A stretch of 17,637 bases of DNA, from contig JAKQEQ010000170.1 of the NCBI GenBank assembly GCA_029556545.1, positions 1-17,637 of the forward strand. The letters run 5' to 3'. This stretch comes from Candidatus Hydrogenedentota bacterium. Lineage in GTDB: Bacteria > Hydrogenedentota > Hydrogenedentia > Hydrogenedentales > JAGMZX01. Positions 4,529-15,917 of this stretch are shown here, in pieces. The notes under the pieces were generated by a model. The model saw only the letters and a list, made by a program, of their open reading frames with translations. It searched no databases and was not told the DNA's origin. The translations under genes and the position numbers were made by a program. Numbering within the stretch: position 1 is the first letter of the stretch; each line of letters opens with the position of its first letter.

Positions 4529-5623
4529 TCAGGCGTCGCCGCTGGCGGCGCGGAAAGGCCAGGGGAGGCGGCGGGGGAACACAGCGAGTCTTCTGCGCGG
4601 CTGGGCTTCGGGCTCGAGAAGTTTCTCGACGAGCGTGTCGAACAGGTCCTGTCGGCTTTCGGAGGTGTGGCGCCCGAGGGCCTTGAGGGCCTCGACGTTT
4701 TCCGGCGATGCGTCGTCGATGTAGGGGTGCGGCAGGCCGCCCTCCGGCAGCGCCGGGTTGATCCGCAGGTAGTGGTCGTCGCGGCGTGCGGCAGCGAAGA
4801 GTTTGCGCAACTGGTAGTCCACCGTGTCGGACGCGCCCGAGACCATGATCTCGGCGAGCGGCGCCATCCATCGCATGATGCCGTAATCCTTTACTACATT
4901 ATAATCGAGGCGTACCGGTGCCTGGCCCGTGCCTACCGAGAAGATAACCATATCGCGCGGCGCGGCCTCCGGGTGCAAGTCGCAGACTTCGGCGAAGGCG
5001 CAGAGCGCGGGATTGTTCGCGAAGACACCGCCGTCGATGTACGGGCGTGGCTCATCGAGATCGTTGCGAATGAGCGCGACGGGGAAGAAGGTGGGTGCGG
5101 CGGAGGTGGCGCGGGCCACGTCGCGCACGTAGTAATCGTGGCCGGGCCGCGTGCGCGCGTCATGCTGCGTGAAGAAGTGGGCCTTGCCGCGCTCGACGTT
5201 GTACGCCGTGATGAGGCATGGGCGCACGAGGTCCTTGAGTCGCGCGTCTCCGAAGTGTTTTTCAAATCCGGCTTCGAGTCCCGCCGCGTCGAATTTCTTG
5301 TGGAGGAAGCCGCCGCCTGACCGAAGCTTGCGCCACAACGTGCTCTGGAACACCGTGCCCCCGCATTCCTCGTAGATGCGGACGACGTCCTCGGCGGCGT
5401 GCCGCGCGCGCTCATGCTGTTCCGGGTCGGGCAGGAGGTACAGCGCCGTGAGGATGCCGCCCGTGCTTGTGCCCGCGAAGAAGTCGAAGAAATCCGCGAG
5501 GCGCGCGTCGGGCCGCCCCGACGCGGCCCGGAGCCGCTGTTCGAGCGCCGTCAAGACGCTTGCGGACAGGAGGCCGCGAATGCCGCCGCCGTCAACCGAG
5601 AGGATGCGAATATACCGTGCCAT
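4529..5623 (-). CDS. Patatin-like phospholipase / lipid acyl hydrolase
   Basis: Predicted serine hydrolase cutting acyl esters of phospholipids or other lipids with a Ser-Asp dyad. The 364 residues begin MARYIRILSVDGGGIRG; DGGGIRG at 11-17 is the oxyanion-hole loop. The nucleophile elbow GTSTGG gives Ser53. ATSAAPTFFP at 172-181 and DGGVFANNP supply the catalytic Asp197. No signal peptide is seen, so a cytosolic or inner-membrane-associated role is likely. The ATG at 5623 is preceded by GGGAG four bases upstream and leaves the oxyanion loop at the expected distance from the start, so I prefer it to longer frames. It is a single gene with its own promoter and is transcribed toward guaBA. Its substrate is unknown. 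Some patatin-like proteins are effectors in anti-phage nucleotide signalling, but no cyclase partner is present here. Confidence 0.93.
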   Translation of the reverse strand: MARYIRILSVDGGGIRGLLSASVLTALEQRLRAASGRPDARLADFFDFFAGTSTGGILTALYLLPDPEQHERARHAAEDVVRIYEECGGTVFQSTLWRKLRSGGGFLHKKFDAAGLEAGFEKHFGDARLKDLVRPCLITAYNVERGKAHFFTQHDARTRPGHDYYVRDVARATSAAPTFFPVALIRNDLDEPRPYIDGGVFANNPALCAFAEVCDLHPEAAPRDMVIFSVGTGQAPVRLDYNVVKDYGIMRWMAPLAEIMVSGASDTVDYQLRKLFAAARRDDHYLRINPALPEGGLPHPYIDDASPENVEALKALGRHTSESRQDLFDTLVEKLLEPEAQPRRRLAVFPRRLPWPFRAASGDA

Positions 5624-5653
5624 ACTACTCCCGCCGCCTTCGTTCGGGAAGAG

Positions 5654-5681
5654 ATTGTCCCACAAACTGCGGGTTTGTCAA
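5654..5681 (-). promoter_or_regulatory. Promoter of the patatin-like gene
   Basis: On the minus strand, a perfect TTGACA (5676-5681), a 16-base spacer and GACAAT (5654-5659, four of six matches) lie about 31 bases before the ATG. The inverted repeat ACAAAC/GTTTGT (5662-5667 and 5673-5678) sits within the promoter and overlaps the -35 box, so it could be a small operator. Confidence 0.55.
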
Positions 5682-9609: not shown

Positions 9610-10986
9610 CTATGCCTCGAGTTCGACGGTATCGCCCGCCAGGGGCGCGAACCGGGCGGCGCCGTTGCTTGTGTTCTCGCGCATCCACGCGATGGCCTCG
9701 GGATCGCCGTGGATGAAGATGATGTTGCGGGGGTGGAAGTGGTCGATGATGTTCTGGAGCGCCCGGCGCGGTGCGTGGGCGCTGAAGTCGAAACGCCGGA
9801 TGTATTCGAGAACCACTTCGACGGGGGCGTAGCCGAGCGCGAAATGGATGAAATCGCCGGGTTTCGCGTGGAGCAGCTTGTAGCCCAGGGTTTCGTGGTC
9901 CAGGTAGCCCACGAAGAAGATGCCGTGGCGTGTTTCCTTGACCATTTCCCGGGCGATCATGGCGGAGGGGGTCGTCTCGACCATCATGCCGGAGGTGGCG
10001 ATGATGATGCAGGGTCGCTCGAGGAGGTGGTCGATGCGCGCGGGGTCCCATACGTTGCCGACGCGGTCGAATAGGTCAAGCGGCCGGAGATAGGCGTCGT
10101 GGCGCAGGAAGTGGTCGAAGCGGTCGTAAATCTCGTACACCGCGCGGCCCAACCCGGAAGCGAAGATGGGCACGCTCGGGATACGTCCCTCTTCCTGAAG
10201 CCGCGAGACGATATTGAGCATTTCCTGTGTGCGGCCCAAGGCGAAACACGGCAGCAGCACGCAGCCGCCGCGGCGCAGCGTCTCGTCGATGGCGTCGGCG
10301 AGCCGGTTCACTTCCTCGTTATAGCACTTGATGTGCGATTCGTCGGTCGCGCCGCGGGTACACTCGATTACCAGGGTGTCCACGTCGAGACGATGATCGA
10401 GCAGCGTGTGCCCGCCCATGAGTTCCTGGTCGCACTCGCAGATGTCGGCGGTGTAGAAGAGGGTATGCCCCGGCATGCGGAGGAGGATGCTGGCGCTCCC
10501 GAGGACATGCCCGGCGTGATGGAAGCTCACTTGTACCGGCGGGTCCGTCGCCAGGTCGATGGGGGTATCCATCGAGAAGCCCTTGATGCAGCGCATGGCG
10601 TAGTGGACGTCGCCGTGGTCGTATAGCGGGTATTCTCGAATGCCCTTTTCACGCGCGAGCGTCTCCATGACGGCCACGCTGTTGTGCAGCATGCGGTCCA
10701 TGATCCGCACGGTCGGTTGCGTGGCGACCGCCTTCGTGAGGGGAAACTCGCGCAGCAGACAGGGAATCGCGCCGATGTGATCGACGTGGGCGTGAGACAC
10801 AATCAGGGCGTCGGGCGGACGGCGCAATAATTCCAACGCGGGCAAGGCGTCCTTGCCTTCTTTCTTCGGGTGGGTCCCGCAATCGAGCAGAATCTGACAT
10901 CCGTCAACGGAGACCCGGTAACACGTGGCCCCGACTTCGCCGCCGCCGCCCAGGACCGTAAAGGTAATCGAGGGTGATCCGCTCAT
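9610..10986 (-). CDS. Beta-CASP metallo-beta-lactamase-fold hydrolase (RNA-processing type)
   Basis: Predicted zinc-dependent nuclease of the CPSF73/Ysh1-like beta-CASP group, acting on RNA in the cytosol. The 458 residues carry HAHVDH at 65-70 (metal motif 2), GHVLGSA with His160 (motif 3) and TAD with Asp181 (motif 4). The beta-CASP part has motif A at Glu208 (IECT), CFALGRTQE at 247-255, motif B His404 in FSAHAPRR, and motif C His426 in FIHGDPEA. The usual SAHAD has become SAHAP. It lacks KH domains and the C-terminal RNase J domain. The ATG at 10986 lies only 9 bases past a good -10 box, so the mRNA is predicted to be almost leaderless. A GTG at 10995 would lie upstream of the expected transcript start. 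It heads the operon with the acyltransferase. Confidence 0.92.
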   Translation of the reverse strand: MSGSPSITFTVLGGGGEVGATCYRVSVDGCQILLDCGTHPKKEGKDALPALELLRRPPDALIVSHAHVDHIGAIPCLLREFPLTKAVATQPTVRIMDRMLHNSVAVMETLAREKGIREYPLYDHGDVHYAMRCIKGFSMDTPIDLATDPPVQVSFHHAGHVLGSASILLRMPGHTLFYTADICECDQELMGGHTLLDHRLDVDTLVIECTRGATDESHIKCYNEEVNRLADAIDETLRRGGCVLLPCFALGRTQEMLNIVSRLQEEGRIPSVPIFASGLGRAVYEIYDRFDHFLRHDAYLRPLDLFDRVGNVWDPARIDHLLERPCIIIATSGMMVETTPSAMIAREMVKETRHGIFFVGYLDHETLGYKLLHAKPGDFIHFALGYAPVEVVLEYIRRFDFSAHAPRRALQNIIDHFHPRNIIFIHGDPEAIAWMRENTSNGAARFAPLAGDTVELEA

Positions 10987-10995
10987 ACGCGACAC

Positions 10996-11162: not shown

Positions 11163-12575
11163 ATGTCCGAAAAGTCCGACCAGTCCGAAGCCGCGTTGTC
11201 CCTCGAGGCGGCGATACGCCGCGCGGGCGCGCGCGCGGTCGAGGCCCTGACCGGCGCGTCCGCCGCTCCCGCGACGGTACGGCGCCTGGCGCGCGTGCAA
11301 GTCCCAATCGGTGAAGTCGCGGCGCTTGACTGGCTTCGCGCCCAGGCGCATCTGACGCAGTACTATTGGGCGGACCGGGACAATGCGTTTGAGATGGCGG
11401 GCGTCGGAGAGGCGGACGTGGTCGCTCCGGGTCAGGGAGACTTCGCCGGAGGCGACGTGTTTGCGTTCATGCGGGAGCGGCTTTCGCCCGAGGTGCGTGG
11501 CCAGCGTTATTACGGCGGCTTTCGCTTTCATCCGGGGCCGCCCCGCGGGGAACGTTGGCGCGCGTTTCACGATTTTCGTTTCGTCGTGCCGCGTTTCGAG
11601 GTCGTGCGGCGCGGGAAGCGGTATGATTTTGCCTGCAACGTCTTGCTGGGCGACGGGGCGGCGAACCGCCGCACGCTGGACGCCGTCGTCGAGATGCTCG
11701 AGTCGCTGCGCCAGCCCGTGCGCATGGCTAGGCTGCCGTTCCCGCCGGTGACGGCGCGGTCCGATGCGCCGGACCGGGCGTGTTGGGAGGCGACGGTGTA
11801 CGCCGCGCTTGAGGCCTTTCGCACGACGCCTTTAGAGAAGGTGGTGCTCGCGCGCGAGACGGTTTTCGAGACAGAGGGTCCGCTGGACCCCGTGGCGGTT
11901 CTTGCGCGGTTGGTCGAGTACACGGAGCAGTCCTTCGACTTCTGCTTTCATCCCGCGCCGGATCGCGCGTTCATTGGTGCGTCGCCGGAGTTGTTGTATC
12001 GGCGAAGCCAGTGTTTTCTCGAAAGCGAGGCGGTCGCGGGGACGCGCCCGCGCGGCCACACGGACGCGGAAGACGCCTTGCTGGGCGAGGTGTTGCTGAC
12101 GGACGACAAGAGCCGGCGAGAGCACGCCTATGTCGTCAAGATGTTGCGCAAGACATTTAAGGGTTTGTGTCGATCTGTGCGTTTCGATGAGAAGCCGTCG
12201 TTGCTGCGGCTGCGCAACGTGCAGCATCTTAAGGCGCGCATCGAGGGACTAATCGAGGGTCCCGAAGACGACGCGGCCTTGATCCGGGCGCTGCACCCGA
12301 CGCCCGCCGTGGGCGGCACGCCGCGCGCGGCGGCCCTGCGATGGATCGAGGAGTACGAGCCTTTCGACCGGGGCATCTACGCCTCGCCCGTGGGCTGGGT
12401 CGCGGCGGTCGGCGCGGAGTTCTGTGTCGGCATTCGCTCGGGACTCGTGCAAGGCAACACGTTGGCGCTGTATAACGGCGCGGGGATTGTGGCGGGTTCG
12501 GACCCGGCGGAAGAGTGGATGGAACTCGAACATAAGATGGGAAACTTTCTCAAGGTCCTGTTCGACTATGCTTGA
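11163..12575 (+). CDS. menF: Isochorismate synthase
   Basis: Converts chorismate to isochorismate, the entry step of classical menaquinone synthesis; cytosolic and Mg2+-dependent. The 470 residues match the family. The chorismate-binding domain fills the C-terminal part from about 205. Lys226 in EKVVLARE is the expected general base. ESEAVAGTRPRG at 287-298 holds the catalytic acid Glu289. Other ligands are His378 in LHPTPAVGG and the Mg-binding Glu454 in EWMELEHK. The ATG at 11163 is preceded by GGGAGG at 11141-11146, which is distant (16 bases), so initiation may be weak; no better start is seen. The last 8 bases overlap menD. Anthranilate or salicylate synthases share the fold, but the menD/menH context settles the role. 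Confidence 0.95.
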   Translation: MSEKSDQSEAALSLEAAIRRAGARAVEALTGASAAPATVRRLARVQVPIGEVAALDWLRAQAHLTQYYWADRDNAFEMAGVGEADVVAPGQGDFAGGDVFAFMRERLSPEVRGQRYYGGFRFHPGPPRGERWRAFHDFRFVVPRFEVVRRGKRYDFACNVLLGDGAANRRTLDAVVEMLESLRQPVRMARLPFPPVTARSDAPDRACWEATVYAALEAFRTTPLEKVVLARETVFETEGPLDPVAVLARLVEYTEQSFDFCFHPAPDRAFIGASPELLYRRSQCFLESEAVAGTRPRGHTDAEDALLGEVLLTDDKSRREHAYVVKMLRKTFKGLCRSVRFDEKPSLLRLRNVQHLKARIEGLIEGPEDDAALIRALHPTPAVGGTPRAAALRWIEEYEPFDRGIYASPVGWVAAVGAEFCVGIRSGLVQGNTLALYNGAGIVAGSDPAEEWMELEHKMGNFLKVLFDYA

Positions 12576-14370
12576 TAGCGCGCCTAACCTCAATCACTTC
12601 TGGTCCGCGTTGATTGTCGAGGAACTCGTCCGTTGCGCCGCAGGCGTCTTCTGCCTTTCGCCGGGATCGCGGTCGACGCCGGCGGCGACGGCCGTAGCGC
12701 AGAACGCCGCCGCTCGGTCCGTGGTGCACTTCGATGAACGCGGCGCGGGGTTTCACGCGCTCGGCTGGGCTTCGGCGACAGGCCGGCCCGCCGTGTTGGT
12801 TTGTACCTCCGGGACGGCGGCGGCCAACTACTGGCCCGCTGTGGTCGAGGCGGCGCAATCGCAGATACCGTTAATCCTGTTGACGGCGGACCGCCCCTCG
12901 GAATTGCTCGCGTGCGGCGCGAACCAGGCCGTCGATCAGGCCAAGCTCTTCGGCGACTACGTAAGGTGGCGCTTCGGTCTTCCGTGTCCCGACGTTCGTA
13001 TTCCGCCGGAAGTGTTGCTGACGACCGTGGATCACGCGGTGTATCGCGCATGCCGCGCCCCCGCCGGGCCGGTGCACCTCAACTGCATGTTCCGCGAGCC
13101 ACTCGCGCCCGTGGACGACGGTGCGGACCTCGCCGCATACGGTGCGTCGCTCGGACCTTGGCGCGAGAGCCGGCGACCGTATACGTGCTGGGAGGAGGGT
13201 GGCACGGGCCTCGCGCCCGTGGTGGCGGACCACGGGCAGGATGCCCATGCCACGAGCGCGGTGCTCGAAACGGTTCAGCGCGCCCGGCGCGGCCTTATCC
13301 TGGTCGGCTTACTGCGGCAGCAAGAAGAAGTGGATGCGGTTCGCGGGCTCGCGCGCGCGTTGGACTGGTCCGTGTTTCCCGACGTGGCGTCCGGGCTGCG
13401 TCTCGGCGGGATCGAGGGGAATGTCGTTGCGCACTATGATCAGTTATTGCTCTCGGACTCGTTTCGCGGGTTGTGCGCGCCGGATGTTGTGCTGCATCTC
13501 GGCGGACCGATGACCTCGAAGCGGGTGATCGAACATCTGGCGGCGAAGCGGCCCGAGTACGTGCGCGTGGCGGGGCATCCCGAGCGCGTAGACCCGCTGC
13601 ATCGTGTAACGCGGCGCATCGAGATGGACGTGGCGGTTTTCGCGCGTTGGCTGGCCGCGTCCGCGCCCGGCGCGGCGGATGCGGCGTGGTGCGACGCGTT
13701 GCGCCGGGCAAACCGCGCGGCGGCGGCAGCGATCGCCGCGTGGGAGCGGGATCGGGATGAACTCGACGAAATTGCCGTCGCGCGGCTGGTCCCCGAACTG
13801 CTGCCGGAGGGCGCGGCGATCTTCTGCGGCAACAGCATGCCGATTCGCGATCTTGACATGTATGCCCCCGGCGACGGCGCGGCGGTCCGGGTGTTTGCGA
13901 ATCGCGGCGCGAGCGGCATCGACGGCAACATCGCGACGGCGGCGGGCGTGGCGCGGGCGCTGCAAGGGCCAATGGCGGCGGTGATCGGTGACTTGGCGGC
14001 GCTGCACGATCTTAATTCCCTGGCGCTGCTGCGTGGCATGGACACGCCTTTCATTCTCGTGATCGTCAACAATGATGGGGGCGGTATCTTCTCGTTTCTG
14101 CCCGTCGCGGAATACCCGGACCACTTTGAGCGATTCTTCGCCGCGCCGCACGGCTTGTGCTTCCGCGATGCCGCCGGGCTGTTCGGCCTTGGCTACTGCA
14201 ACCCACGGACCAAGGCGGACTTCGAGGTTGCTTTTCGTTCCGCGCTCGAAGCGGGCGGGGCCGTAATCATCGAGGTCAACACCAAGCGCGACGAGAACCT
14301 GGTCGTACATCGTGCGCTTCAGGCGGAAATCGCCGCGGTCACCGACGGAGCGTGTATGACGAATGCGTGA
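12568..14370 (+). CDS. menD: SEPHCHC synthase (2-succinyl-5-enolpyruvyl-6-hydroxy-3-cyclohexene-1-carboxylate synthase)
   Basis: Thiamine-diphosphate enzyme joining 2-oxoglutarate-derived succinic semialdehyde to isochorismate with loss of CO2. The 600 residues carry SPGSRSTP at 31-38, the cofactor-activating Glu57 in DERGAG, CTSGTAAANYWPAVVEA at 79-95, and the ThDP motif from GDLAALHDLNSLALL (474-488) to VNNDGGGIFSFLP (500-512). Domain order is pyrimidine-binding, central, pyrophosphate-binding. The ATG lies inside the end of menF (8-base overlap), so the two are coupled. It is longer than E. coli MenD (about 556). Part of the excess is residues 211-229, encoded by a palindromic repeat inserted in frame in the linker after the first domain. 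All recognised catalytic segments are intact, so the enzyme is expected to work. Confidence 0.96.
   Translation: MLDSAPNLNHFWSALIVEELVRCAAGVFCLSPGSRSTPAATAVAQNAAARSVVHFDERGAGFHALGWASATGRPAVLVCTSGTAAANYWPAVVEAAQSQIPLILLTADRPSELLACGANQAVDQAKLFGDYVRWRFGLPCPDVRIPPEVLLTTVDHAVYRACRAPAGPVHLNCMFREPLAPVDDGADLAAYGASLGPWRESRRPYTCWEEGGTGLAPVVADHGQDAHATSAVLETVQRARRGLILVGLLRQQEEVDAVRGLARALDWSVFPDVASGLRLGGIEGNVVAHYDQLLLSDSFRGLCAPDVVLHLGGPMTSKRVIEHLAAKRPEYVRVAGHPERVDPLHRVTRRIEMDVAVFARWLAASAPGAADAAWCDALRRANRAAAAAIAAWERDRDELDEIAVARLVPELLPEGAAIFCGNSMPIRDLDMYAPGDGAAVRVFANRGASGIDGNIATAAGVARALQGPMAAVIGDLAALHDLNSLALLRGMDTPFILVIVNNDGGGIFSFLPVAEYPDHFERFFAAPHGLCFRDAAGLFGLGYCNPRTKADFEVAFRSALEAGGAVIIEVNTKRDENLVVHRALQAEIAAVTDGACMTNA
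13199..13253. repeat. 55-bp palindromic interspersed repeat within menD
   Basis: Outer arms GTGGCACGGGC (13199-13209) and GCCCATGCCAC (13243-13253) pair at 10 of 11 positions. The inner arms GCCCGTGGT (13215-13223) and ACCACGGGC (13229-13237) pair perfectly around the 5-base loop GGCGG. The menD frame reads it as GTGLAPVVADHGQDAHAT, and the reverse strand can be read as MGILPVVRHHGREARAT. Both resemble translations of a dispersed repeat I recall in many Planctomycetes and Hydrogenedentes proteins (GTGxPPV...GRDAHAT). That identification is from memory. The palindromic fold and the in-frame position are visible directly. Confidence 0.7.
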
Positions 14371-15378: not shown

Positions 15379-15609
15379 ATGAGCACGTTGACCGATGTCA
15401 CTAGGGAAGCCTTGTCGCTTCCCGTCGAAGACCGCGTTGTACTGGCGCAACGTGTTTGGGACAGCATGGAGCACTTTGTGGACGCCGACATCGAGCAGGC
15501 ATGGATGGATGAGTCGGACCGAAGATGGCGAGAGATTGAGGAAGGGAAGGTCGAGTGCCAGTCGGCGGACGAGGTAATGAAACGAGCGCGCAAGGCTCTG
15601 GGACGCTAA
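15379..15609 (+). CDS. Antitoxin of a type II toxin-antitoxin pair (addiction-module component family)
   Basis: The 76-residue acidic protein resembles the short addiction-module antitoxins paired with ParE/RelE toxins. Its N-terminal helix TREALSLPVEDRVVLAQRVW at 8-27 is the typical opening of this family, and the C-terminal half (DESDRRWREIEEGKVE, then a basic tail KRARKALGR) would wrap the toxin. Such proteins usually also repress their own operon, although no clear DNA-binding domain can be seen here. The ATG at 15379 follows GAGGAG by 8 bases. The last 55 bases overlap the toxin gene. The pair stands between menH and menB, behind a terminator, so it probably has its own promoter. Confidence 0.85.
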   Translation: MSTLTDVTREALSLPVEDRVVLAQRVWDSMEHFVDADIEQAWMDESDRRWREIEEGKVECQSADEVMKRARKALGR

Positions 15610-15917
15610 TCCTCGACTACCATCCCAGCGCAGCCGCGGAACTGAGCGCGGCGGCCCAATTCTATGAGGGGAAATGCGCCGGCCTCGGGCACAAGTTCCT
15701 GGACGCTGTCGATCGGACACTTGCCGCCTTGCGGCAGTCTCCGATGCTCGGACGGCCCGAAGCGAGCGGAAAAAGAAAATGGCCCATGCGGCGTTTTCCA
15801 TATGCGATTATTTACAGGATCGAAGGCGTCTCTCTGTTTGTGCTGGCGATAGCTCACACCAGCAGAAAGCCAGGCTATTGGACCGTGAGGGACGAATCGT
15901 CCGATGTAGAACAATAG
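15555..15917 (+). CDS. ParE/RelE-family toxin
   Basis: Predicted toxin of a type II addiction module; ParE members poison DNA gyrase and RelE members cut ribosome-bound mRNA, and this sequence sits nearer the ParE/plasmid-stabilisation side. The core from residue 17 has LDYHPSAAAEL at 20-30, then GLGHKFLDAVDRTLAAL, and the family hallmark RRFPYAIIYRIEG at about 79-91, ending in AIAHTSRKPGYW. The only start codon in frame is GTG 15555, with GGAAGGG 8 bases upstream. It adds a 16-residue extension encoded inside the antitoxin gene. No ATG exists near the antitoxin stop, where such toxins usually begin. The frame is otherwise intact, so an active toxin is plausible. menB follows after 21 bases. 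Confidence 0.85.
   Translation: MPVGGRGNETSAQGSGTLILDYHPSAAAELSAAAQFYEGKCAGLGHKFLDAVDRTLAALRQSPMLGRPEASGKRKWPMRRFPYAIIYRIEGVSLFVLAIAHTSRKPGYWTVRDESSDVEQ

Follow-up and report, generated by a model that had tools for sequence, protein, structure and literature searches.

The menD gene of a Hydrogenedentota bacterium contains a 55-bp double hairpin within its coding sequence, which raises the question of what this DNA is and how it came to lie in the gene without breaking the reading frame. It was found in a window of 17,637 nucleotides, the whole stretch of DNA that was analysed, where a men cluster (isochorismate synthase, menD, menH and menB) surrounds the element. The features of the locus are the following:

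12568..14370, plus strand: menD, 600 aa, host gene of the insertion (TIGR00173, 450 bits for a cut-off of 244)
13199..13253, plus strand: REPIN-like element, an inverted pair of GTGG-tagged hairpins, residues 211-229 (repeat search, alignment, covariance model, covariation)
13199..13202, plus strand: GTGG, the tag at the outer end of the left (B) half (alignment A1 of 28 copies shows it conserved)
13203..13221, plus strand: left (B) hairpin CACGGGC-ctcgc-GCCCGTG (A1 pairs 5-11/17-23, 96.9% of cells paired, C-G/T-A covariation)
13222..13230, plus strand: variable spacer between the hairpins, whose length differs by copy (alignment A1)
13231..13249, plus strand: right (A) hairpin CACGGGC-aggat-GCCCATG, with one C.A mismatch in the menD copy (A1 pairs 35-41/47-53, 95.9% paired)
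13250..13253, plus strand: outer tag CCAC, which is GTGG on the opposite strand (alignment A1)

The inverted-repeat arms (13199-13223 and 13229-13253) are 25 nt each, 84% complementary and separated by 5 nt, and the element's strand folds with z=-3.7 compared to dinucleotide shuffles, which confirms the double palindrome reported in a preliminary description of the locus. That description also proposed an in-frame insert at residues 213-228; the insert holds, but its exact span is codons 211-229, whose translation includes ..GGTGLAPVVADHGQDAHAT... The element has no match in Rfam.

MenD is composed of three Pfam domains, TPP_enzyme_N (14-126), TPP_enzyme_M_2 (236-419) and TPP_enzyme_C (450-570), and the insert indeed lies in the linker between the first and the central one, as had been noticed from the sequence. 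It is the only menD match in the host genome, where the second hit is weak (E 1.4e-5) and covers only residues 51-109. An alignment with relatives, suggested earlier as a check, shows that 61 aa separate the REPL anchor from the RGL anchor in the host, compared to 44-53 aa in 29 relatives (52 in the same genus); the segment is therefore absent elsewhere. Since the net gain in MenD is 9 aa rather than 18-19, the old linker has lost about 10 codons, so that the insertion preserved the frame, as first described, but was not a pure addition. The catalytic motifs are intact, again as described: E57, GDLAALHD..NNDGGG and further ones vary little or not at all across 26 sequences. The AlphaFold model of MenD, computed with the same number of sequences (26), has a mean pLDDT of 88.4, and its sole segment below 50 is residues 212-226. 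MenD probably still works with the insert.

The element is one of about 100 or more copies in the host genome (an assembly of 6.1 Mb in 195 contigs, 96% complete). A 69-nt query gives 46 matches in this genome. A covariance model, built from 28 copies and with the best 150 of 8528 candidates scored, finds at least 155 matches down to E=8e-18 on both strands; the matches listed correspond to 102 distinct places and include about 100 full copies. The half-unit GTGGCAYGGGCN5GCCC, with at most one mismatch, occurs 226 times, versus once for a reversed control, and half-units without a listed partner also occur. The genome-wide search and the covariance model that the preliminary description had called for thus both reveal a short hairpin at high copy number, which is characteristic of REPs and REPINs. 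In the 28-copy alignment, the consensus is GTGGCACGGGCGTCCCGCCCGTG, about 6-11 nt, then CATGGGCAAGATGCCCATGCCAC, and nearly all copies have the tag GTGG, of the GTAG/GTRG type that defines REPs, at both outer ends.

The alignment also shows which structure is conserved. Inside each half, C-G pairs have changed to T-A on both sides (A1 columns 7/21 and 37/51): 12 cells are changed on both sides compared to a shuffled mean of 3.8, and none of 500 shuffles reaches the observed value. The pairing of the long arms, on the contrary, shows no compensatory changes, and one particular pair fails in 20 of the 28 copies, which rules out one long hairpin as the conserved unit. The shuffles preserve the make-up of the columns but not the relatedness of the copies, and what counts most is therefore how differently the two structures fare on one and the same alignment. 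The unit consists of two tagged hairpins in inverted orientation; since the covariation is confined to the halves, as in REP pairs, the element is an inverted REP pair (a REPIN, or head-head REP dimer).

Among 68 genomes of the phylum, the number of half-units ranges from 0 to 226, a spread that a mobile family would be expected to show. The exact element is found in records of Verrucomicrobia, Opitutaceae, Lentisphaerae, Kiritimatiellae, Planctomycetota, Hydrogenedentes, Sumerlaeota and Acidobacteria. The distribution over Planctomycetes and Hydrogenedentes given in the preliminary description is thus right, and it is wider still.

Several other insertions can be compared with empty sites in relatives. 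MetH has gained 19 aa (57 nt for a 55-nt element) and a PIG-L deacetylase 18 aa (54 nt for a 52-nt element), and both inserts are clean, consisting of the element plus 2 nt. The gain is 14 aa in a heparinase-like protein and, as mentioned above, 9 aa in MenD; at these two sites old codons were lost, at insertion or later, so that the loss of target codons varies (0, 0, 5 and 10 aa). In a DUF4962 protein, a worn element is present at the same place in a sister genome, and this insertion is therefore probably older than the divergence of the two species. A search of 39 copies for target-site duplications of 1-10 nt is negative: they are at most in weak excess over shuffled pairing, and full matches are almost absent. 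The base before the tag is C in 54 of 78 ends.

Bacterial REPs are extragenic by name. The present family is also mainly extragenic, yet its intragenic share is unusually high: 13 of the 78 full copies with flanks lie within ORFs, in frame, and have coding signal on both flanks, compared to 36 with no such signal on either side and 22 with signal on one side only. A copy in an Eco57I methyltransferase (C116:52156) has Pfam support on both sides but falls below the threshold of this count. Besides MetH and PIG-L, the hosts include an IcmF-type B12-binding/MeaB protein, heparinase-like enzymes and a PMT_2 protein. Twelve of the 13 in-frame copies are in phase 1 (43% expected from the open phases, p=3.2e-4), and 10 of the 13 have the orientation and phase that read xGTGVPPVxEDHGQDAHAT (22% expected, p=3.7e-5). 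The REP family is thus often read through, and its strongly preferred codon phase inside genes gives a polar linker. These in-frame copies, together with the empty sites, support the initial idea of a mobile palindrome able to enter genes without breaking the frame.

Which enzyme could move such an element is suggested by a genome of the same genus (G001), whose contig C80 carries a RAYT-like gene (Y1/HUH, with an NHVH motif) that has the same REP as menD on both flanks; the REPs are in frame with the gene, as CGTGVPPVRAEKKEHGQDAHAT repeats. Although its protein scores 68.4 bits on the RAYT model NF047646, below the cut-off of 80, its anatomy (NHVH motif and flanking REPs) is that of a RAYT. 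The same REP also brackets related RAYTs in Lentisphaerae (L262) and in Opitutaceae (L263), so that REP-flanked RAYTs of one clade are found in three phyla. The L262 gene has one internal stop, and this copy may therefore be dead. In further genomes, sister RAYTs have the same layout, between sister REPs with other stems. The search for a Y1/TnpA-REP transposase, another check proposed from the start, is thus positive in the genome of the same genus and in two further phyla, and negative in the host's own 96%-complete assembly, where no RAYT flanked by the menD-type REP was found. The host genome has four RAYT-like genes, none of them flanked by the element family. Its one clade member, at C9:25921-26442, is 41% identical and has no such REPs adjoining. 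The gene at C116:53296-53685 was discarded as a REP-flanked candidate because the nearby REPIN sits inside the neighbouring methyltransferase gene, and so were the IS200-type proteins at C57 and C25, which have no REPs adjoining. Several high-copy genomes (G028, G049 and G066) also give no match to the clade.

We consider that the element is very probably a REPIN-type miniature mobile element, most likely moved by the RAYT clade of G001:C80, whose frame-keeping copies persist in genes. The clade RAYT, a single-strand HUH/Y1 transposase, would recognize the tag and hairpin (GTGGCACGGGC...GCCCGTG) on single-stranded DNA, and would copy or move the hairpin pair to new sites. Intragenic copies would persist only when the frame is kept, nearly always in one codon phase, which reads as a polar linker rich in Gly, Pro and His, other insertions being purged. 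In menD, the insertion would have hit the loop that joins the first domain to the middle one, which lost about ten of its original codons.

The length of the loop between the MenD domains varies (44-53 aa), and the segment might be seen as ordinary MenD sequence, a lineage-specific loop in which the palindrome is incidental. This can hardly be the case, because the genome has about 100 copies of the same 55-bp DNA, both within unrelated genes and in intergenic positions. It could also be that the palindrome is kept for a function in RNA or DNA, as an mRNA hairpin or a site for gyrase or another protein in the men operon, its place in menD being regulatory. REPs elsewhere have been credited with roles in mRNA and supercoiling (PMC3733652), and the strong fold of the element's strand would fit such a role. 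However, copies occur in unrelated genes and intergenic DNA, the menD site is empty in the 29 relatives, Rfam gives no match, and the codon-phase bias indicates that the peptide is under selection, and not just the hairpin; a regulatory origin is therefore quite improbable.

A different process may instead have spread the copies, for example template switching at hairpins, gene conversion or the action of another Y1 protein (e.g., that encoded at C116:53296-53685). The host's own assembly indeed has no RAYT adjoining these REPs, one copy has another RAYT-like gene about 1.1 kb away, and the uneven loss of target codons is untidy for a transposase. But RAYTs of one clade have exactly this REP on both flanks in three phyla, and the REP arrays around a RAYT may break assemblies: the REP-flanked matches are 45-364 bp from contig ends, so that the host's own copy may, at a guess, have been lost to assembly. 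Such a process is unlikely, and transposition by the clade RAYT is the reading that we retain.

The same clade is also found within genes. In six genomes, the reading frame of a host protein runs through a RAYT, and domains of that protein precede and follow it:

G021 (L184, G021:C113): RAYT embedded between Eco57I and TaqI_C, 1418 aa
G059: RAYT embedded between N6_Mtase and Eco57I
G033 and the Sumerlaeota genome G072: RAYT embedded between N6_Mtase/Eco57I and Type_ISP_C, that of G072 being a more distant relative of the clade
G032: RAYT embedded between GCV_T and GCV_T_C, in a GcvT-like protein
Planctomycetota G074, a MAG (L271, G074:C288): purH, whose AICARFT domain is split by the RAYT at profile positions 58/77

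No purH other than the split one was found in the G074 genome. A likely seventh case is G018, where a methyltransferase domain follows the RAYT. In the cases scanned (L184-L189), REP-like hairpins or their repeats are present on both sides of the embedded RAYT. At the Eco57I methyltransferase site, G021 has a whole RAYT cassette where the host genome has a REPIN. The genomes concerned include metagenome assemblies, and the fusion proteins are predicted ones. Two candidates were left out: a 685-aa frame (G016:C89), whose N-terminal part resembles a non-coding open frame, and the Opitutaceae gene L263, which does not count as a proven host fusion because Pfam matches nothing in its upstream part. 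Five genomes have RAYTs in frame inside large Eco57I or Type ISP restriction-modification enzymes (L184, L185, L186, L187 and L272), and the methyltransferase of L184 has more repeat-coded stretches (RRDAQATPDPLRRDAQATSDPL...) in another linker.

We lean towards the view that the REP-RAYT cassettes of these phyla are translated in-frame inserts, in which the transposase is internal to the host protein and the REPs act as linkers, solo REPINs such as that of menD being the small form of the same coding element. The clade would then show the in-frame habit of the REPs at a larger scale, inside enzymes up to the sole purH found. If the proteins are really made so, the transposase rides on host genes without silencing them, and genomes receive a steady supply of new inter-domain linkers. 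Within the part of the journals covered, literature searches returned no report of RAYTs in frame inside host genes; one paper mentions that unexpectedly long Y1 proteins were discarded as fusions or annotation errors (PMC6006769).

REPINs and RAYTs (PMC3116915, PMC8266576) and in-frame REP dimers in Opitutus terrae and Rickettsia (PMC3733652) are already known, and the menD insert is therefore a new case of a known phenomenon. The REPINs of Pseudomonas fluorescens SBW25 are similar inverted REP pairs with a short spacer, present as hundreds of RAYT-associated units, and the group I REP also starts with GTGG; however, they are almost all extragenic (14 16-mers overlap genes), compared to 13 of 78 pairs in frame here (PMC3116915). 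Di Nocera et al. (2013) described GTAG-tagged intragenic REP dimers, in O. terrae in particular; like the present ones, they occur in PVC bacteria as head-head dimers within known genes, in their ORFs, and most of the inserts (more than half) encode 20-30 aa (PMC3733652). Compared by description rather than by stem and loop consensus, the GTAG-20 elements of O. terrae mostly read GTGG, like the present one. The main text of that paper describes neither a preferred codon phase nor RAYTs read as in-frame parts of host genes, unlike what is seen here.

The Rickettsia palindromic elements, as far as they are presented in PMC3733652, are also short palindromes in frame in functional genes, but they have a CGTC tag (RPE-4/6) and no known transposase, whereas the menD element has a GTGG tag and an attached RAYT clade, which sets it apart from them. 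The REPtron, or TnpAREP system (PMC8266576, PMC6006769), has the same arrangement of an HUH/Y1 transposase gene between REPs, with a tag and hairpin. Unlike in the REPtron, the REPs here share the reading frame of the transposase and, in several genomes, that of a host protein extending to either side.

The window also contains a ParE-type toxin gene (PF05016) at 15555-15917, between menH and menB. On the minus strand, positions 4529-5665 encode a patatin-like protein near the model of the CBASS cGAMP-activated phospholipase (192 bits for a cut-off of 200), a possible anti-phage effector, and positions 9610-10995 a beta-CASP RNase that resembles the archaeal aCPSF1 and type VII CRISPR nuclease models, below both cut-offs.
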